Of a DNA stretch of 52,225 bases, positions 39,086-47,982 are shown in pieces (position 1 is the stretch's first letter; every line of letters begins with the position of its first letter). The translations under genes were made by a program, and so were the position numbers. The notes beneath the pieces are model-generated. The model was given only the letters and a program-made list of their open reading frames with translations, was not told the origin of the DNA and ran no database searches. The stretch lies in NCBI GenBank assembly GCA_029261215.1, contig JAJDBT010000013.1, positions 1 through 52,225 on the forward strand, given 5' to 3'. Source of the DNA: Nitrospirota bacterium. GTDB lineage: Bacteria; Nitrospirota; Nitrospiria; SBBL01; JAADHI01.

Positions 39086-39106
39086 ACTCCCGCAGTAAAT
39101 AACTTG

Positions 39107-39275
39107 TTCAGGTAAACCCGGTCTTTCGCCGGGTTTAAAAAGGGAATCCCGTTCAAATCGGGAGCGGTTCCGCCGCTGTGTTGGGGGACGAAACCCACTT
39201 TATGCCACTGTCGCATGCGACGGGAAGGCGTGGGGAGTAGGACGAACCCAGAGCCAGAAGACCTGCCTGTAACAA
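39107..39275 (+). ncRNA. Cobalamin riboswitch 1 (btuB leader)
   Basis: The leader shows the conserved elements of a B12 aptamer: an early hairpin (AAACCCGG...CCGGGTTT), AAAGGGAAT, the central GCCGCTGT, the GCCACTG hallmark near 39204, GGGAAGGCG, the GAGTAGGACGAACCCAGAGCCAG segment split over 39235-39258, and AGACCTGCCTGT closing the P1 stem against CAGGTAAA. It precedes btuB and its terminator. Binding of adenosyl- or another corrinoid should repress the downstream genes. Confidence 0.93.
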
Positions 39276-39323
39276 GCGATCGCCACCCGTCTTCGGTGAA
39301 AAAGACAAGGGATCACACAGGAT

Positions 39324-39364
39324 ATCCCCATCTTCTCTCATCATCAGAAGCTGGGGATTTTTTT
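39324..39364 (+). terminator. Intrinsic terminator of riboswitch 1 expression platform
   Basis: ATCCCCATCTTCT (39324-39336) pairs with 39346-39358 save one mismatch, followed by seven U (39358-39364). It ends 20 bp before the btuB ATG, so regulation is probably by premature termination. Confidence 0.85.
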
Positions 39365-39384
39365 GTTTAAAGACCAGGAAAATA

Positions 39385-41397
39385 ATGAGAACACCGCTGA
39401 TCTTAATCACGCTTTTGGTATTTCACCCCCACACCGCATCCGCGCAATCTCCCAACACAGAACCCCCGGTATTTTTGGAGGGCATTACCATTACCGCTAC
39501 TCCTATAGACGAGGCAGACGAAAACACAGAACCTTCCCATAAAACGGTCATCAAGGGGGAAACACTTCAGGAACGCTTTACATCCGTCCCTGAAATCCTC
39601 TCTGAAACCGTGGGCGTGAAAATTACACGCTTTGGCGGACTCGGTGATTTCAGCACCATTTCCATCCGAGGCTCGTCTTCCGAGCAAGTCCTGGTTTACC
39701 TTGATGGGTTCTTGCTCAATGCCGCACAAGGCGGTGCAGTCGATCTGGCCAAGATTCCGGTTTCACAAATTGAATCGATAGAAGTCTATCGTGGCAGCGC
39801 ACCCGTATTGTTTGGACAAACAGGGATCGGAGGGCTGGTTAATATTCGGACAAAAGCCGCTTCTCGTGAAAAATCCCTCTCCTATCAAATGCAATACGGC
39901 TCCTTTAATACAACCCGTTTGAACACCACATTTTCTCAAAAACCCAACAAAACAGACATCCTTCTTGGCTTAAACCTCGAAAAAAGTGATAACGATTTTG
40001 AGTTTCTCAGTGACGAAGGAACGCAGTTTGACGCAACGGATGACAAAACCGTCAAACGTCGAAATGCCCAGTTTGAATCATTGAACTTCATTGCCAAATT
40101 GGGCCACGACCTTAATCTTCAGAACCGGCTGCATGTCTATTATAATTTTCTGGACACCGACAAAGGCGTTCCTGGTCTCGGTGCGTTTCAGTCCGATACA
40201 GCAAATTTTAAAGTGGCATCGCACCGCATCAGTTTCAGATGGGATACCGATAATGTCGCAAAAACAGGCCTCAAGACCCAGTTTACACTGAAATACAGTA
40301 CTAAAAATGAGACCTTTACAGACTTGAGCGGCGATATCGGTGTTGGGGGAAATAGCCACAATGATAACCGCACTCAGCTATATGAAGCACATCTCAATGT
40401 AAACCGGGCCATTGGGAAGTACCACATTCTGAAAACACAGCTGCAAACGCGAGAAGAACGTTTCGACCCTTTTGATCAGTTGGCCGGAATTAAAGGAGGC
40501 ACTAGTCGGCAACGGACTTACTCTTTTGCCTTGGAAGATCAGATCTCACTTTTTAAAGAACATCTCTTTATCACTCCGAGCCTGCTTTATGAGGACGTGC
40601 GAAGCCGATTTAAAGATGACCCTTCCAAACGGACTTTAGGGAAAAGCATTCCGCCGGACAGTCAAGACCAATTCCTCACTCGCCAGATCGGCCTCTTGTA
40701 CCGCTTCTCGGAAACGCTCACACTACGGGCCAATATCGGTCAGTATTTTCGTCGTCCCAGTTTTTTTGAACTTTTTGGAGACCGGGGAGGCACGATCGGA
40801 GAAGCTGACCTGAGGCCGGAAACAGGCCTGAACCGGGACATCGGGATACGCTACAGCCGCCGCTTCAAAAGCGCAATCCGTAAAATCACACTACAAGCCG
40901 CCTATTTTAATAACAAAGCCGAAGACCTCATCCTATTCGTGCAAACCTCGCAGTTCACCGTACACCCTGAAAATATCGCAAAATCACAAACCACGGGTGA
41001 AGAACTTTCTGCCCGGATAAATCTGGGTGAACATTTCAGATTTGAAACAAACTACACCCATCAACGCGCCAAAAATAAAAGCAATATTCCCAATGAGAAA
41101 AACAAATTTTTACCAGGTCGGCCGGTGCACGACCTCTTCACCAAAATAGAAACATTTAATGAACAATTCTCTTTATATTACAGCCACCACCTCACAGATG
41201 AGAACTATCTCGACCGTCGCAACCAACGCAACGCCGCTTCGCGACAGATCCACAACCTGGGTTTTTCAGTTAAATCACATTCGAATTGGACGCTTACTTT
41301 AGAAGCAAAAAATATGAGCGACGACCAAATTGAAGATGTCTTCGGCTTTCCACTGCCGGGACGCAGTTATTTCATAACCTTACAAGGGACGCTTTAG
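39385..41397 (+). CDS. btuB: BtuB-type TonB-dependent corrinoid receptor
   Basis: The 670-residue protein is a TonB-dependent outer membrane receptor. It has a signal peptide (cleavage near ASA-QS), a region after it (ITITATPIDEADEN) carrying the TonB box, a plug domain (KITRFGGLGDFSTISIRGSSSEQVLVYLDG, given in part as SIRGSSSEQVLVYLDG), then a 22-strand barrel ending in aromatic-rich strands (GRSYFITLQGTL). Control by a cobalamin riboswitch identifies the cargo as a corrinoid. A beta-propeller lipoprotein follows 8 bp later and is likely a partner. RBS is GGAAAA. Confidence 0.93.
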   Translation: MRTPLILITLLVFHPHTASAQSPNTEPPVFLEGITITATPIDEADENTEPSHKTVIKGETLQERFTSVPEILSETVGVKITRFGGLGDFSTISIRGSSSEQVLVYLDGFLLNAAQGGAVDLAKIPVSQIESIEVYRGSAPVLFGQTGIGGLVNIRTKAASREKSLSYQMQYGSFNTTRLNTTFSQKPNKTDILLGLNLEKSDNDFEFLSDEGTQFDATDDKTVKRRNAQFESLNFIAKLGHDLNLQNRLHVYYNFLDTDKGVPGLGAFQSDTANFKVASHRISFRWDTDNVAKTGLKTQFTLKYSTKNETFTDLSGDIGVGGNSHNDNRTQLYEAHLNVNRAIGKYHILKTQLQTREERFDPFDQLAGIKGGTSRQRTYSFALEDQISLFKEHLFITPSLLYEDVRSRFKDDPSKRTLGKSIPPDSQDQFLTRQIGLLYRFSETLTLRANIGQYFRRPSFFELFGDRGGTIGEADLRPETGLNRDIGIRYSRRFKSAIRKITLQAAYFNNKAEDLILFVQTSQFTVHPENIAKSQTTGEELSARINLGEHFRFETNYTHQRAKNKSNIPNEKNKFLPGRPVHDLFTKIETFNEQFSLYYSHHLTDENYLDRRNQRNAASRQIHNLGFSVKSHSNWTLTLEAKNMSDDQIEDVFGFPLPGRSYFITLQGTL

Positions 41398-41405
41398 GAG
41401 AAAAA

Positions 41406-42560
41406 ATGAAGAAAACCAACAAGAATTATTGCATATTATCTCGAATTTTAATAGGGCTCAGTTTGATCGCCTCTCTCTATGGATGCGGTGAAGATAACAA
41501 AACTGGGGGAGGTGCAGAACCTTCTCTCGGCTTTGTCGTGACCAGCGGATCTGGCGTGGGCAATCTCACGACCCTCAGCAAAACGATGCCGCACACAACT
41601 GAAAAAGACGTGTTGGGGGCCACAGGACTGCATTCAGATGCAGTCATAAAATCATTCGGTGGGCTTGTTTATATTATCCAACGTTTGGGGTCAAATTCGA
41701 TCGTTGTAATTAACCCCAATAATCCCAGCATCCCATTGGAAAACTACACCACGAATGACGCCGGAAGCAGTGAGCAATCCAATCCACACGACATGGCTTT
41801 TGTGAGTGCTTCAAAAGCCTATATCACCCGTTATAGTTTAAACACCCTTTTGATTGTGAACCCCGTAACGGGCACCCAGCTTGGGACCATCGACCTCTCT
41901 AGCTTTGCCGACAGCGACGGCATTGTCGAAATGGATCAAATGGTTATCGTAGACGGCTTGCTCTATGTTTCCTTGCAACGCCTGAACCGAAACAATTTTT
42001 TTATCGCCGAAAACGAAAGCTATATCGTCGTGATCGACACCGCGACGGATCAAGTTCTTAATCTGGGCACAGACAAACAGATTGTGCTTGATGGCCGTAA
42101 CCCCTTCAGCATGACCTACCTTGCCGCAAGTAATCGAATTTATGTGGCCAATGTCGGCACCTTTTCCACGGGTGACGATTTTGGAGGCATTGAGATAATC
42201 AATCCAAATACTGGCCTGAGTGATGGACTGTTCATGGCAGACAATGATTTTAGCGGACCCCTGGGCACCATTGCCATTTTGTCAGAAAGCGTCGCCTACG
42301 CCACTGTCTTTGATGCCAATTTTAACAACTTCGTCGTGCCGTTTCGCCTCGATACACAAGAAGTTTCACCAGCATTAACCGGTGTTGGAAGCGGATACAT
42401 TCCAAGCATGACACTTGATCATGCTGGATCGCTCTACGTGGTCGATCGGGACACCACAAATCCGGGCATTCAGATTTTCGACACCACGACAAATCAAAAA
42501 ATAGAAGGGCCGATTGATACGGGGCTTCCTCCCAACGATATTTTGTTTGTGAACCCTTAG
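41406..42560 (+). CDS. YncE-like beta-propeller lipoprotein, candidate BtuG-type corrinoid-binding protein
   Basis: The 384-residue product has a lipobox (SLYGC, Cys near residue 27) after a hydrophobic stretch, a Gly-rich linker, and a mature body of WD/YncE-like blade repeats. Examples are KAYITRYSLNTLLIVNPVTG, NRIYVANVGTFSTGDDFGG and GSLYVVDRDTTNPGIQIFD. It follows btuB by 8 bp under the same riboswitch. In Bacteroides, BtuG is a surface lipoprotein beta-propeller that binds corrinoid tightly and sits on BtuB. The architecture and context here match that, but sequence identity was not measured. RBS AGGAG precedes the ATG. Confidence 0.8.
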   Translation: MKKTNKNYCILSRILIGLSLIASLYGCGEDNKTGGGAEPSLGFVVTSGSGVGNLTTLSKTMPHTTEKDVLGATGLHSDAVIKSFGGLVYIIQRLGSNSIVVINPNNPSIPLENYTTNDAGSSEQSNPHDMAFVSASKAYITRYSLNTLLIVNPVTGTQLGTIDLSSFADSDGIVEMDQMVIVDGLLYVSLQRLNRNNFFIAENESYIVVIDTATDQVLNLGTDKQIVLDGRNPFSMTYLAASNRIYVANVGTFSTGDDFGGIEIINPNTGLSDGLFMADNDFSGPLGTIAILSESVAYATVFDANFNNFVVPFRLDTQEVSPALTGVGSGYIPSMTLDHAGSLYVVDRDTTNPGIQIFDTTTNQKIEGPIDTGLPPNDILFVNP

Positions 42561-42564
42561 GGTA

Positions 42565-42601
42565 AAAATTCCCCTCATTCCCCCTTTTTTAAAGGGGGAG
42601 G
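42565..42601. repeat. Short pyrimidine/purine palindrome before cbiB
   Basis: A CCCCC-T6-AAA-GGGGG hairpin lies immediately before the cbiB start. Its 3' arm (GGGGGAGG) also supplies the ribosome-binding site, so folding could hide it. The element resembles the longer palindrome near 48 kb. Confidence 0.4.
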
Positions 42602-42607
42602 TTTTAT

Positions 42608-43582
42608 GTGGAAGTGAAAAAGATGAACCCAAGTTTGCTCACAAGCGCCTTTGTACTCGACCTTTTGATGGGGGATCCACTCTGGCTCCCCCATCCGGTT
42701 CGACTCATAGGTAGCGGCATCGCCGGGCTTGAAAAAATCCTTCGCCGTGTTGCGGTCTCACGCGTCGGGGAAAAAGGGGCAGGACTAATACTCACAATAA
42801 CAATCGTCTCGACTGCCTTCGGATGCACATGGCTAACAATCGCAGTCGGAAGATTTATTCATCCGTATTTAGAAGCGTTTTTGATCGTCTATTTTTCATA
42901 CGCCTGCTTGGCGACAAAATCATTGGGCGATGCCGCAAACGGCGTAAGTGAGGCCCTCGAAAATACAGCGCTTCCGCTCGCACGGCAGCGGCTTTCTCAC
43001 ATTGTTTCACGGGAAACCAATGATCTTTCGGAAGAGGCGATGATTCGCGCAACAGTCGAAACAGTCGCCGAAAATACATCGGATGGTGTCGTTGCCCCAC
43101 TTTTTTATCTGGCCCTCGGCGGCCCCGCGCTCGCGATGGCCTATAAAGCGGTGAATACCCTGGATTCGATGGTCGGGTATCGCACGCCACAATATCGTCA
43201 TTTTGGATGGGCATCTGCAAGGATGGATGATTGGGCCAATTATTTTCCCGCCCGCATTACCGGTTTTTTGGTGGCCCTTTCCGCCGCGCTTTTTTTTCAA
43301 GGTGGCAGGCAGGCCTTGAAAATTATGCAGAGAGACGGCCGAAAACACGATAGCCCCAATGCAGGCATTCCGGAAGCCGCCACTGCCGGGGCGCTCGACA
43401 TTCAGCTCGGGGGGCCCAGCACTTACAAAGGCGTACTGAAAGAAAAACCCTGGCTGGGCGATGCAGGACAAAAATTGGAAAACAGGCACATTCAAAACAG
43501 CATCCACCTGATGCAAAGCACGGGGGTTTTGATGGGGCTCTGCGCGGTCATCGCACTTGTCATTCTGGAGGTGGCACAATGA
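42608..43582 (+). CDS. cbiB: Adenosylcobinamide-phosphate synthase CbiB
   Basis: CbiB attaches aminopropanol (phosphate) to adenosylcobyric acid at the inner membrane. The 324-residue protein has the family start FVLDLLMGDPLWLPHPVRLIG, four or five hydrophobic helices, and the central ARSRV-type region ETVAENTSDGVVAPLFY, a hallmark of the family. GNPxAGxPE appears here as DSPNAGIPEAATAGAL. I choose the GTG at 42608 because GGGGGAGG lies six bases upstream; the ATG at 42623 is an alternative. Its stop overlaps the ATG of cbiA (ATGA). Confidence 0.93.
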   Translation: MEVKKMNPSLLTSAFVLDLLMGDPLWLPHPVRLIGSGIAGLEKILRRVAVSRVGEKGAGLILTITIVSTAFGCTWLTIAVGRFIHPYLEAFLIVYFSYACLATKSLGDAANGVSEALENTALPLARQRLSHIVSRETNDLSEEAMIRATVETVAENTSDGVVAPLFYLALGGPALAMAYKAVNTLDSMVGYRTPQYRHFGWASARMDDWANYFPARITGFLVALSAALFFQGGRQALKIMQRDGRKHDSPNAGIPEAATAGALDIQLGGPSTYKGVLKEKPWLGDAGQKLENRHIQNSIHLMQSTGVLMGLCAVIALVILEVAQ

Positions 43583-44889
43583 AGGCCTTTGTCATCGCGG
43601 GCACGCACAGCGGCGTGGGCAAAACAACCGTTTCCATCGGCCTCATGGCCGAATTCAAACGGCGCGGTCTGGCCGTGCAGGCCTTCAAAATCGGGCCGGA
43701 TTATATTGACCCTTCCTATCATCGCCTTGCAACGGGCCGCCCCTCGCGCAACCTCGACACCTGGTTGTGCAGCAAAAAGACGGTGCAACACAGTTTTGCC
43801 CGTGCGGCCTTGGATGTCAACGTCGTCGAGGGCGTCATGGGCCTTTTTGACGGCGCGAAAAACGGCAAAGGCAGCACAGCAGAAACAGCCGCGCTGCTCG
43901 GCCTTCCGGTCATACTTGTTGTAGACGCCAAGGGCATGGCGCAGTCGGCGGGGGCCTTGGTGCAGGGTTTTGCGCAGTATCAGCAAAAAACACGCATTGC
44001 CGGTGTGATTTTCAACCGCGTGGCCTCCGAGGGACATTACGAATATCTCAAGAATGCCGTGAAAATCCCAAGCCTCGGCTGGATTGCAAAAAACGAAGAC
44101 ATCGAACTTCCCGAACGTCATCTCGGGCTGGTGCCCGCAAACGAGCGTGCGCCCGATATCGAAAGGATTCGCCAAAGGGTCATCGCCCATCTTGACGTGG
44201 ACAAATTGCTTAAGCTTTCTAAAATCGATACCCCTCGCCCTCAAGCGCTTGCAAAACGAAAAACAAGGGCCCGCATCGCCTATGCCCTAGATACGGCCTT
44301 TCATTTTTATTATGAGGACAATTTGGATCGTTTGCGGGCCGAAGGCGCCGAACTCGTGCCCTTCAGTCCCCTGGAAGATGAGTGTTTGCCCGATGTGGGC
44401 CTGCTCTACTTCGGGGGAGGTTTTCCTGAATTATTTGAACAAAAACTGTTTAATAACAAGCGCTTTTGTGAGGCGATGCAGCGTTGGCAAAAGCCGATTT
44501 ATGCCGAGTGCGGCGGGCTCTATTACCTCAGTCTCATTGGAAAAATCCCCGGAACCATGCAGATGAAAGACCGCCTCCAGCACTTTGGTTACGCCCAGGC
44601 CACCGCGCAAATCGATACCTGCCTCTTGCGCGCGGGAGAAACCGTCAAAGGCCACATGTTCCATTATTCGCATTGGGCGGGCACACCCAATCTCTACACC
44701 CTTGAAAAACGGGGTCTTAACCTGAGTGAAGGTTATGCGAATGAAATGATTCACGCGTCCTACCTGCATGTGCATTTTGCCTCACGGGTCTCCCCCGGCA
44801 CGGAGGACCCGCTCGCGGCGCGGGGAAAACCGGTGCTGGCGCGCCGATTGGTCGATGCAGCCCAAGCGGCCCAAAAGGAGGATGGATGA
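43579..44889 (+). CDS. cbiA: Cobyrinic acid a,c-diamide synthase CbiA
   Basis: CbiA amidates the a and c side chains of cobyrinic acid using glutamine and ATP. The 436-residue product has the P-loop HSGVGKTTVSIGL, the KIGPDYIDPSYH motif, and a C-terminal class I glutaminase domain with the nucleophile Cys in YAECGGLYYLS and His in the ASYLHVHFAS end. Overlapping start and stop codons link it to cbiB and cbiX. RBS GGAGG lies 6 bp before the start. Confidence 0.95.
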   Translation: MKAFVIAGTHSGVGKTTVSIGLMAEFKRRGLAVQAFKIGPDYIDPSYHRLATGRPSRNLDTWLCSKKTVQHSFARAALDVNVVEGVMGLFDGAKNGKGSTAETAALLGLPVILVVDAKGMAQSAGALVQGFAQYQQKTRIAGVIFNRVASEGHYEYLKNAVKIPSLGWIAKNEDIELPERHLGLVPANERAPDIERIRQRVIAHLDVDKLLKLSKIDTPRPQALAKRKTRARIAYALDTAFHFYYEDNLDRLRAEGAELVPFSPLEDECLPDVGLLYFGGGFPELFEQKLFNNKRFCEAMQRWQKPIYAECGGLYYLSLIGKIPGTMQMKDRLQHFGYAQATAQIDTCLLRAGETVKGHMFHYSHWAGTPNLYTLEKRGLNLSEGYANEMIHASYLHVHFASRVSPGTEDPLAARGKPVLARRLVDAAQAAQKEDG

Positions 44890-45608
44890 AAGAAGCGGTG
44901 CTCTTGGTTGGTCATGGCAGCAAAGATCCTGAAGGCAACAAAGAATTCGAAGACTTCGCCGCGCGCGCGGGCATGCGCCATTGCATGCTCGACTATGTGG
45001 AACCTTCTCTGCCCACCGCCTTGGCCCTGCTTGCGGCCGAAGGCGTGTCTGAACTGGCCGTCATCCCCTACTTTCTTTTTGCGGGCGGACATGTGAAAAA
45101 AGACATTCCGTTCATCATCCAAAATGCGCAGGCCCAATACCCCAGGATGCGCATTCGGCTGGGGCGGCACCTCGGCCTTGAGACCGCCTTATTTGAGACC
45201 AGCGTTGCGCGATTGCAGGGTATCGAAGGCAGAAAAGTCCTCTTGGTCGGGCGAGGCAGCCTGCACCCCGAACCCATTCGTGACATGGCCACGGTATGCC
45301 AGACGCTCCGCACATGCACCGGACATCCAGACATTGACCATTGTTTTATCGCGCTGGCCCCGCCGGATCTGCCGACCGGCATTACCCACAATTACTGTGC
45401 AGACCATCGGCCGCCGATTGTGCTGCCTTATTTTCTATTCACCGGGATACTGGTCAAGCGCATCATCAAAATCAGTGAACAGTATGGTTGCGAGGTGCGC
45501 CCACATCTGGGTACGCATGAGGCCTTGCTTACCTTGGTTCATCAACGAAAAACTGAAATTTTGGAAGGAGCAGACCATGCAAACGATTATCGATCCGCAA
45601 GCCATTGA
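44886..45608 (+). CDS. cbiX: Sirohydrochlorin cobaltochelatase CbiX
   Basis: CbiX inserts Co(II) into sirohydrochlorin, the first committed step of the anaerobic corrin pathway. The 240-residue product is the two-lobed long form. The first lobe has the catalytic pair His10 (LLVGHGSKD) and His69 (LFAGGHVKKDIP). In the second lobe the matching sites read LVGRGSLHPE and FLFTGILVKR, so it has lost both histidines and is probably structural. No C-terminal His-rich or Fe-S tail is present. It overlaps cbiA at the start by ATGA and cbiC at the end by 32 bp. Confidence 0.94.
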   Translation: MKEAVLLVGHGSKDPEGNKEFEDFAARAGMRHCMLDYVEPSLPTALALLAAEGVSELAVIPYFLFAGGHVKKDIPFIIQNAQAQYPRMRIRLGRHLGLETALFETSVARLQGIEGRKVLLVGRGSLHPEPIRDMATVCQTLRTCTGHPDIDHCFIALAPPDLPTGITHNYCADHRPPIVLPYFLFTGILVKRIIKISEQYGCEVRPHLGTHEALLTLVHQRKTEILEGADHANDYRSASH

Positions 45609-46200
45609 AGACGAATCATTTCGAATTATCGAGGAAGAATTCGGCCCACATTCTTTTTCCCCAGAGGCCTTTGCGATTGTACGCCGTGCCATTCACGCCA
45701 CGGCCGATTTTGATTTTTCAAAAACCATCCACATTTTTCCGGGTGCGATTCAGGCAGGGATCAGGGCAATCCGAAAAGGCGTGCCCATCATCGCCGATGT
45801 GCAGATGATTCAAGCAGGCATCAACAAAAAAGGACTCGAAGCCTTTGGCTCGGAGGTCTTTTGTTTTATCGGGGACGAGGATGTCGCGAAAAAAGCAAAG
45901 GCTGCGGGCGTGACCCGCGCAATGATTTCCATGCGAAAAGCCGCATCGTATTACCCCGGCGCCATTTATGCGATCGGAAACGCGCCGACCGCGCTTCTGG
46001 AATTGATTCGCCTTGCGGAGACCGCCATACCTGCGCTGGTCATTGGTGTGCCTGTGGGGTTTGTTTCCGCCGTGGAGTCCAAAGAACAATTGGCGCTTAC
46101 ACACCTGCCCTACATTACCGCCCTGGGACGCAAAGGCGGCACCCCGGTGGCTGTGGCCATCATGAACGCACTCATTAAACTTGCGGGAGAAAAGATATGA
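45577..46200 (+). CDS. cbiC: Precorrin-8X/cobalt-precorrin-8 methylmutase CbiC
   Basis: CbiC moves the C11 methyl to C12 to form cobyrinic acid. The 207-residue product contains the catalytic His in AIHATADFDF, the SD-like region ADVQMIQAGI, and the conserved GNAPTAL and GVPVGFVSAVESKE motifs. The start at 45577 overlaps the end of cbiX by 32 bp and has GGAAGGAG as ribosome-binding site. A longer upstream open frame runs across cbiX and is not used. Confidence 0.94.
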   Translation: MQTIIDPQAIEDESFRIIEEEFGPHSFSPEAFAIVRRAIHATADFDFSKTIHIFPGAIQAGIRAIRKGVPIIADVQMIQAGINKKGLEAFGSEVFCFIGDEDVAKKAKAAGVTRAMISMRKAASYYPGAIYAIGNAPTALLELIRLAETAIPALVIGVPVGFVSAVESKEQLALTHLPYITALGRKGGTPVAVAIMNALIKLAGEKI

Positions 46201-46523
46201 AACCTTATAAGTGGCATTTGTTGATATGCACCGGCCCTCGTTGCACCGAAGACGGGGAAGCCGAAGCCCTCTTTTCGCAACTTGGCGAAAAACTGAAACA
46301 GCACGGGCTCGATGACGGCGACCTGCGTGTGAAACGCACGCGTTGCAGCTGTTTTGCAATTTGCAAAGAAGGCCCGATCGTCACCCTTCACCCCGATGGG
46401 ACCTGGTACAAGCGTGTCACGCCGGAGGTTTTGGACGAAATTCTGGAAAAACATCTCAAGGGCGGTGAAGTCGTGAAAGCCCATGTCTATCATCAGGCGG
46501 AAGGGCTTTCCGTTTTAAAATAG
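46197..46523 (+). CDS. Thioredoxin-like [2Fe-2S] ferredoxin
   Basis: The 108-residue product resembles thioredoxin-like ferredoxins. Cysteines at 11, 16, 50, 52 and 56 fit a C-x(n)-C ... C-x3-C cluster pattern (ICTGPRC and CSCFAIC), followed by DGTWYKRVTPE. It overlaps cbiC by ATGA, so it belongs to the corrin operon. A ferredoxin here could deliver electrons for cobalt reduction before adenosylation or for precorrin-6A reduction; this is an inference. No cobG is seen, so the pathway is taken as anaerobic. Confidence 0.85.
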   Translation: MKPYKWHLLICTGPRCTEDGEAEALFSQLGEKLKQHGLDDGDLRVKRTRCSCFAICKEGPIVTLHPDGTWYKRVTPEVLDEILEKHLKGGEVVKAHVYHQAEGLSVLK

Positions 46524-46812: not shown

Positions 46813-47982
46813 ATGAACACCACGATTCAACGCATCGTCTTTTCAGCACTTTTATTAAGCAGTCCTTTGTCGGTCGCCTGGGCGAGTGGCGCAGAAAAAG
46901 GACTTAGCCGCTACGACCCCAAAACACTGGCTTTTGTCACCAATCGGGATTCAAATGACATTGCCGTCATCGATACCGAAACCGATCGTGTCATTGCCCG
47001 AATCCCCTTGGGCGCGATGAGCAATGCTCACATGGCTCAGCCGACACATGACGGCAAAAAACTCCTGGTTTCCGCCACGGGGCGCAATCAGTTTTTAGTC
47101 GTCGATCTCGCCACGCTTAACATAGAGCACAGCATTCAAACCGGCGCGGCCCCCGAACATTTTGGCCTCACGCCGGACAACCAATATGCCACCGTGGGCA
47201 ACATGGGCGATGCCAGTGTCTCCCTCGTTGATCTGAATGCAGGAAAAGAGCTCCAGCGTTTTGCCGGATTTCCTGAACCGCACGGTTTTAGTTTTTCCCC
47301 TCAAAATAAAAAGGTTTACGTTTCCAGTTTTGGTGCACACGAAGTACGAAGTTTTGATTTGCCGACCCAAGAATGGGCGATGCGACACCCTATTGGCACC
47401 ACCCACCGTGCGGCCACTCAAAAACCGAAGCCTTACCAAAGTGCGCTTAAAGGAGTGGCGCACCCGACGCTTTCGATGGATGGAAAATACATCTACGCCG
47501 CCGACGGTGATTCCGGGCAAGTGGGCATTATCGATGTTGAAAATGACCGGCTGATCTCAACGATTAAAGTCGGGAAAGCCCCCTGGCGGGCTTATGCCTC
47601 TCCCGATGGACTTTGGATGCTGGTTTTAAATAACGGCGATCACAGTATTTCGGTCATCAGCACAGCAACACAGAAAGTCGTTGCGACCCTGAAAGGCGGC
47701 GCGGACATGAGCGGCGTGAACTTTGTTCAGGGCGGCCAAAAGGCTTATGTCGTGAGTCAGTCGGAGGGCGCGGTGGATGTCTTTGATTTGCGGACGTTCA
47801 AAAAAATCAACCGTCTGAAACTGGGTGAAAACCTCACACTGGAAACGGCTGCCACTAGCGCGGACGGCAAAAAAGTGTATGTCGCCTCTTCAAGCGATGG
47901 CGTGAACCGCATCGCCGATGTGGGGCGGTTTCCCTGGGGGATTAGTATTCTCGGCGCGGCGAGCGCGAATTATTGTCACTGA
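46813..47982 (+). CDS. Exported YncE/cytochrome-d1-like beta-propeller protein under B12 control
   Basis: The 389-residue protein has a cleavable signal peptide (cleavage near AWA-SG) and no lipobox. It is thus predicted to be periplasmic, unlike the btuB-linked lipoprotein. About seven blades of YncE type follow: TLAFVTNRDSNDIAVIDTETD, TPDNQYATVGNMGDASVSLV, KKVYVSSFGAHEVRSFD, KYIYAADGDSGQVGIIDVEND and WMLVLNNGDHSISVISTAT. Preceded by its own cobalamin riboswitch, it probably binds corrinoid or cobalt in the periplasm. NirF-like heme handling is an alternative. RBS AAGGAGGAAG is strong. Confidence 0.8.
   Translation: MNTTIQRIVFSALLLSSPLSVAWASGAEKGLSRYDPKTLAFVTNRDSNDIAVIDTETDRVIARIPLGAMSNAHMAQPTHDGKKLLVSATGRNQFLVVDLATLNIEHSIQTGAAPEHFGLTPDNQYATVGNMGDASVSLVDLNAGKELQRFAGFPEPHGFSFSPQNKKVYVSSFGAHEVRSFDLPTQEWAMRHPIGTTHRAATQKPKPYQSALKGVAHPTLSMDGKYIYAADGDSGQVGIIDVENDRLISTIKVGKAPWRAYASPDGLWMLVLNNGDHSISVISTATQKVVATLKGGADMSGVNFVQGGQKAYVVSQSEGAVDVFDLRTFKKINRLKLGENLTLETAATSADGKKVYVASSSDGVNRIADVGRFPWGISILGAASANYCH

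Follow-up and report, generated by a model that had tools for sequence, protein, structure and literature searches.

Computational analysis of a 52,225-nt stretch of DNA (the window; contig 25 in a Nitrospirota genome of 3.37 Mb) reveals a conserved, riboswitch-controlled gene pair outside the Bacteroidota that encodes a TonB-dependent outer-membrane receptor (TBDT) and a beta-propeller lipoprotein. The pair most likely works like BtuBG, the lipoprotein being a relative of the BtuG/XusB kind of lid as opposed to a proven BtuG, and we think it probable that the two proteins act as a B12-repressed outer-membrane module for corrinoid capture in this Nitrospirota lineage, forming a complex with each other and taking a corrinoid as their ligand. 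BtuG has been called exclusive to Bacteroidetes (PMC6143338) and absent from other BtuB-using organisms (PMC12751083), and existing accounts put its origin down to competition in the gut. A literature search, conducted mostly without subscription papers, found no such pair reported for Nitrospirota. If our reading is correct, then lid-assisted TonB-dependent uptake of small molecules would be a speciality neither of Bacteroidota nor of the gut, and would occur in a host which carries its own B12 synthesis genes. Lid-assisted vitamin capture may then be older or more mobile than has been thought, and the pair would offer a test case for a propeller lid scaffold that switches between siderophores and corrinoids. 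The relevant features of the window are as follows.

39094 to 39284, forward strand: cobalamin riboswitch aptamer (RF00174; 115 bits, model positions 1-189 of 189)
39324 to 39364, forward strand: hairpin resembling an intrinsic terminator, in the expression platform of the riboswitch (12 base pairs, loop of 9 nt, U7)
39385 to 41397, forward strand: TBDT, a putative BtuB-like corrinoid receptor (670 aa; Pfam Plug 2.5e-21, TonB_dep_Rec barrel 3.9e-35)
41406 to 42560, forward strand: lipoprotein with a beta-propeller domain, a putative surface lid, BtuG/XusB-like (384 aa, lipobox cysteine 27)
42576 to 42602, forward strand: inverted repeat with a T-rich tail 3' of the lipoprotein gene, a possible partial terminator of a kind that is similarly frequent in shuffled sequence
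42608 to 46523, forward strand: cobalamin synthesis genes cbiB, cbiA, cbiX, cbiC and a 2Fe-2S ferredoxin-like gene, in the same order in the related locus L006
46604 to 46727, forward strand: second cobalamin riboswitch (95.5 bits)

The aptamer begins slightly upstream of position 39107, where the earlier note on this DNA had placed the start, and is followed by a 12-pair stem (39324-39358) and then U7 ahead of the TBDT start codon (ATG). This hairpin folds as a terminator (minimum free energy -20 kcal/mol; z -2.1; 6 of 200 shuffled sequences fold equally well) and was overlooked by the automatic terminator scan because its loop is 9 nt long and the scan allows a maximum of 8. A gap of 8 nt separates the TBDT and lipoprotein reading frames, and the lipobox of the latter is L24-Y25-G26-C27. 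The earlier note had described this succession of riboswitch, terminator, TonB receptor and a lipobox protein 8 bp further on, and each element is borne out by profile, ORF or fold evidence. Four related genomes have kept the arrangement, which is therefore not a product of chance.

Homologues of the lipoprotein (56-71% identical) are present in four further genomes of the 98 related genomes that were searched. The TBDT (E below 1e-40) and the lipoprotein co-occur in 5/98 and neither is found alone in any of the 98 (Fisher P 1.5e-8, a statistic which ignores relatedness). The two genes are adjacent at every locus with the TBDT first, the riboswitch lies directly 5' of the pair at each of the three loci that extend far enough upstream (the window, L006 and L007), and cbiB lies 3' of it wherever the contig allows, in two different Nitrospirota families. 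An even sampling of the phylum (396 genomes) gave three matches, all of them already known, and a scan of genome contigs gave matches in two genomes only, both likewise known already. The module is thus rare and patchy, being confined in these samples to two families of one class. The earlier note had held that homologues lying mainly outside B12 loci would refute its reading; the close homologues were found in B12 loci, so that this check did not refute it. A mixed profile (A8) with matches in 46/396 Nitrospirota genomes was considered as a source of wider relatives and rejected, as the matches inspected were generic propellers; their loci, mostly beside FtsX-type permeases and without a cobalamin riboswitch, were not counted as members. 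Separately, we observed a widespread Nitrospirota propeller family (L037-L051) of about 370 aa with the motif IAGHGGHxAxxDxRTMKxPTD, encoded mostly 5' of an FtsX/MacB-type permease.

The sequence relationships of the lipoprotein point towards Bacteroidota lid proteins. No Pfam family matched it up to E 1, YNCE and DUF4374 included (the latter is likewise unmatched by the Bacteroidota relatives introduced below), and there was no match to the NCBIfam YncE model. When the profile of the lipoprotein family was run over 177,635 distinct PDB sequences it returned nine matches, all of them BtuG or BtuG-type entries (E 0.0029-0.11) as judged by comparing the entry codes with PMC10404256 and with the entry titles, and the similarity to BtuG is marginal and extends mainly over 80-130 residues. 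A tblastn search of 72,556 plasmid records gave two matches only (E about 1e-6), both of which are propeller lipoproteins encoded directly 3' of TBDTs, in Phocaeicola (L011) and Prevotella (L012). The Phocaeicola lipoprotein itself matches B. fragilis XusB at E 8.7e-8, with BtuG next. Profile comparison gave 97% (E 3e-11) with the Phocaeicola/Prevotella lipoproteins, 92% (E 6e-7; hhalign) with BtuG and 6% with a second propeller encoded in the window. When a single HMM and a fixed database size were used, the two XusB-like lipoproteins scored 37-44 bits and B. finegoldii BtuG 14.5 bits, compared to 13 bits or less for generic Nitrospirota propellers, while Persicobacter BtuG was at background; generic control propellers, from this window and from the phylum, also scored near background. 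The TBDT shows the same affinity, scoring 101-120 bits against the Phocaeicola/Prevotella TBDTs and 36-67 bits against Bacteroidota BtuBs.

These results bear on the earlier proposal that a BtuB/BtuG-like pairing exists outside Bacteroidota, perhaps by convergence from the common YncE fold. The pairing itself stands, in that a B12-riboswitch TBDT does occur with a BtuG-like propeller lipoprotein in Nitrospirota. The convergence does not: there is no YncE match, BtuG chains are all that the profile picks up in the PDB, and the TBDT-paired Bacteroidota lipoproteins score far above generic Nitrospirota propellers. Receptor gene and lipoprotein gene are jointly related to the lid systems of Bacteroidota, and there is no need to invoke convergence from YncE. 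The pair thus appears to be homologous to the Bacteroidota systems that combine a TBDT with a propeller lid. YncE-family propellers, of which the second propeller (46813-47982) is an example, have the propeller fold in common with the window lipoprotein, but they have no significant sequence match to it and are neither lipoproteins nor TBDT-paired.

The best NCBIfam model of the TBDT is TIGR01779 (TonB-B12; 155 bits), the family of BtuB from E. coli, an organism without a lid lipoprotein. This score is below the curated cut-off of 599.7 bits, but the cut-off is uninformative here because control Bacteroidota BtuBs score 50-60 bits and also fall below it. We also rejected the score as proof of a BtuB, since a TBDT located upstream of hemE scores higher and the Bacteroidota BtuBs score lower. 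The former is the second TBDT of the genome (L016:1408-3336, contig 98), which reaches 228 bits and lies 5' of hemE without a riboswitch. Against the PDB, the best match of the TBDT family profile is BtuB1 of B. theta (E 3.2e-29), and E. coli BtuB is matched at E 6e-21.

It is known that a propeller lid can also serve siderophores, as in XusB (PMC13142918), and pairs of a TBDT with a XusB-type lipoprotein (PMC13142918; L011, L012) have the highest sequence similarity to the two window proteins. Their lipoproteins also share with the window lipoprotein a long blade loop with F......Y...IDT.TD. Unlike the window pair, L011 and L012 are without a B12 riboswitch, and the Phocaeicola massiliensis pair (L011:14-7131) is located 3' of NRPS-like and phosphopantetheinyl-transferase-like genes; these relatives are thus probably siderophore systems. 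The L011 locus is possibly one in which a siderophore producer is joined to a lid, in a phylum for which siderophore production has been described as not known (PMC13142918). The window pair could be a XusAB-like importer of iron in xenosiderophores whose place behind a B12 riboswitch is coincidental. The proximity of both proteins to the Phocaeicola/Prevotella pairs, and the XusB match of the Phocaeicola lipoprotein, speak for this reading. We nevertheless regard it as very unlikely given that the riboswitch is 5' of the pair in each of the long-enough loci, that cbiB comes next in two Nitrospirota families and that BtuG ranks above XusB in structure. The window pair has cbi genes and an MFS transporter gene for neighbours, and a XusB-type siderophore locus with a PepSY reductase is absent there.

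An AlphaFold2 model of the lipoprotein, built from a five-sequence alignment, is a complete propeller (mean pLDDT 70.7, pTM 0.75), as the earlier note had anticipated. BtuG chains fill 15 of the first 16 ranks in a Foldseek search. In VIA structural alignments the first 11 ranks are all BtuG (Z 28.8-31.1, rmsd 2.7-3.1 over 302-310 residues), followed by 6-phosphogluconolactonases (Z 28.1), XusB (26) and YncE (25). According to this model, the nearest solved structures are those of BtuG, with a modest margin over other propellers at a pLDDT of 71, in agreement with the sequence evidence. The description of the protein as having YncE-like blades was accordingly right as regards the fold but not the family.

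The likeness to BtuG (BtuG1-3 of Bacteroides thetaiotaomicron; PMC6143338, PMC10404256) extends beyond the fold. BtuG is likewise a lipobox propeller whose gene adjoins that of a TBDT and is controlled by a cobalamin riboswitch; it is acidic and has the blade motif GxLYVxDxxD....G in common with the window lipoprotein. The two are 17-18% identical over the structural alignment, with the window protein differing in a longer loop at residues 192-205 and in its host phylum, and the window gene row running on into cbi genes as opposed to btuFCD. The same btuB-btuG order 3' of a riboswitch is seen in a member of the Bacteroidota, Persicobacter sp., on a plasmid of which (L014:1347-5798) a cobalamin riboswitch, a DUF4465-like gene, btuB and btuG are in one row. 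BtuG2 binds its positively charged cofactor via a negatively charged face and possesses two pocket tryptophans, W194 and W272, which narrow the upper-ligand cavity (PMC10404256). The net charge of the mature lipoproteins in our family lies at roughly -16 to -24, similar to that of BtuG, and the loops of one propeller face contain 50% invariant residues against 23% for the opposite face (Fisher P 0.0006), which fits a face for ligand and partner. There are no counterparts of Trp194 and Trp272, nor is there a tryptophan in any of the five homologues; instead, invariant arginines (Arg93, Arg142, Arg192, Arg231 and Arg348) are found at loops of the conserved face. Any corrinoid binding would consequently be done differently from BtuG2. 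We entertain the tentative idea that the XusB-like branch of siderophore lids gave rise in Nitrospirota, separately from BtuG, to a corrinoid lid with a Trp-free, Arg-containing pocket, and that receptor and lid were inherited or transferred as a unit.

The Bacteroidota lipoprotein export signal (LES), given as MKWD for BtuG2 (PMC6143338), is also absent: the residues after the lipobox cysteine are GEDNK, GDDNN, SENKT and ANNNN, in a comparison to a phylum-specific signal that may not apply. In view of the missing pocket tryptophans and export signal we have not filed the lipoprotein as BtuG. The lack of an LES would also suit a lipoprotein on the periplasmic side, acting there as a corrinoid chaperone or in some unrelated role. 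Nor does modelling of the complex count against this: a fused-chain model, in which the L007 TBDT and lipoprotein, whose genes share a reading frame, were joined by read-through with TAA as Q (a modelling device) and folded with five further rows, reached pLDDT 44 and pTM 0.33 and was uninformative as to whether a complex forms. When the window species is compared with L006, identity is 58% for the TBDT and 63% for the lipoprotein, but 71-91% for the Cbi proteins, the second propeller and the ferredoxin. This faster and similar divergence of TBDT and lipoprotein is as expected if both are surface-exposed together. Those relatives whose structure and partner have been established (BtuG and XusB) are moreover surface lids, and we therefore consider a periplasmic location highly improbable.

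In the mechanism that we favour, that of B12-repressed corrinoid capture, scarcity of corrinoid would let transcription pass the terminator, and the cell would then produce the TonB-dependent receptor together with the lipid-anchored, acidic beta-propeller. We infer that the latter would lie outside the outer membrane over the barrel mouth, where the loops of its one face may catch corrinoid and pass it on to the receptor, in the manner of BtuG and BtuB. Onward transport to salvage enzymes inside the cell would fall to BtuF/BtuC-type proteins, whose genes lie elsewhere in the genome. The case for a corrinoid ligand is made by regulation and gene context, and consists of the riboswitch, the cbi genes, btuF and btuC beside cobQ, and the absence of CbiM. 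In a search of the genome family by family, btuF and btuC were located directly 3' of cobQ, near cobS, cobT and cobU (names read from translations), a NicO-family metal transporter was present and the CbiM cobalt transporter was not found.

The genome has B12 synthesis genes, and it is thus not obvious why the cell should need to capture the vitamin. Cobalt uptake is often under the control of B12 riboswitches, and the pair might import cobalt, as a chelate or in some other form, to supply de novo corrin synthesis as opposed to a finished corrinoid. It heads a cbi row that includes cbiX, the cobaltochelatase gene, in a genome with no CbiM, and its nearest sequence relatives look like metallophore receptors. 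Since the NicO-family metal transporter is present, the lipoprotein model resembles BtuG best, and btuF and btuC beside cobQ point to corrinoid import, we consider cobalt uptake unlikely and retain corrinoid capture as the preferred function.

Only two cobalamin riboswitches were found in the genome, both inside the window. The second is followed by the second propeller and then by cbiD and more cbi genes (translations inspected). This propeller (46813-47982, 389 aa), which lies directly 3' of that riboswitch and between the ferredoxin gene and cbiD, is apparently non-lipidated and YVTN/YncE- and NirF/AztD-like, and its identity to the L006 counterpart is about 90%, far above that of the TBDT or the lipoprotein. 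It is possible that it has a role in periplasmic cobalt or corrinoid handling.
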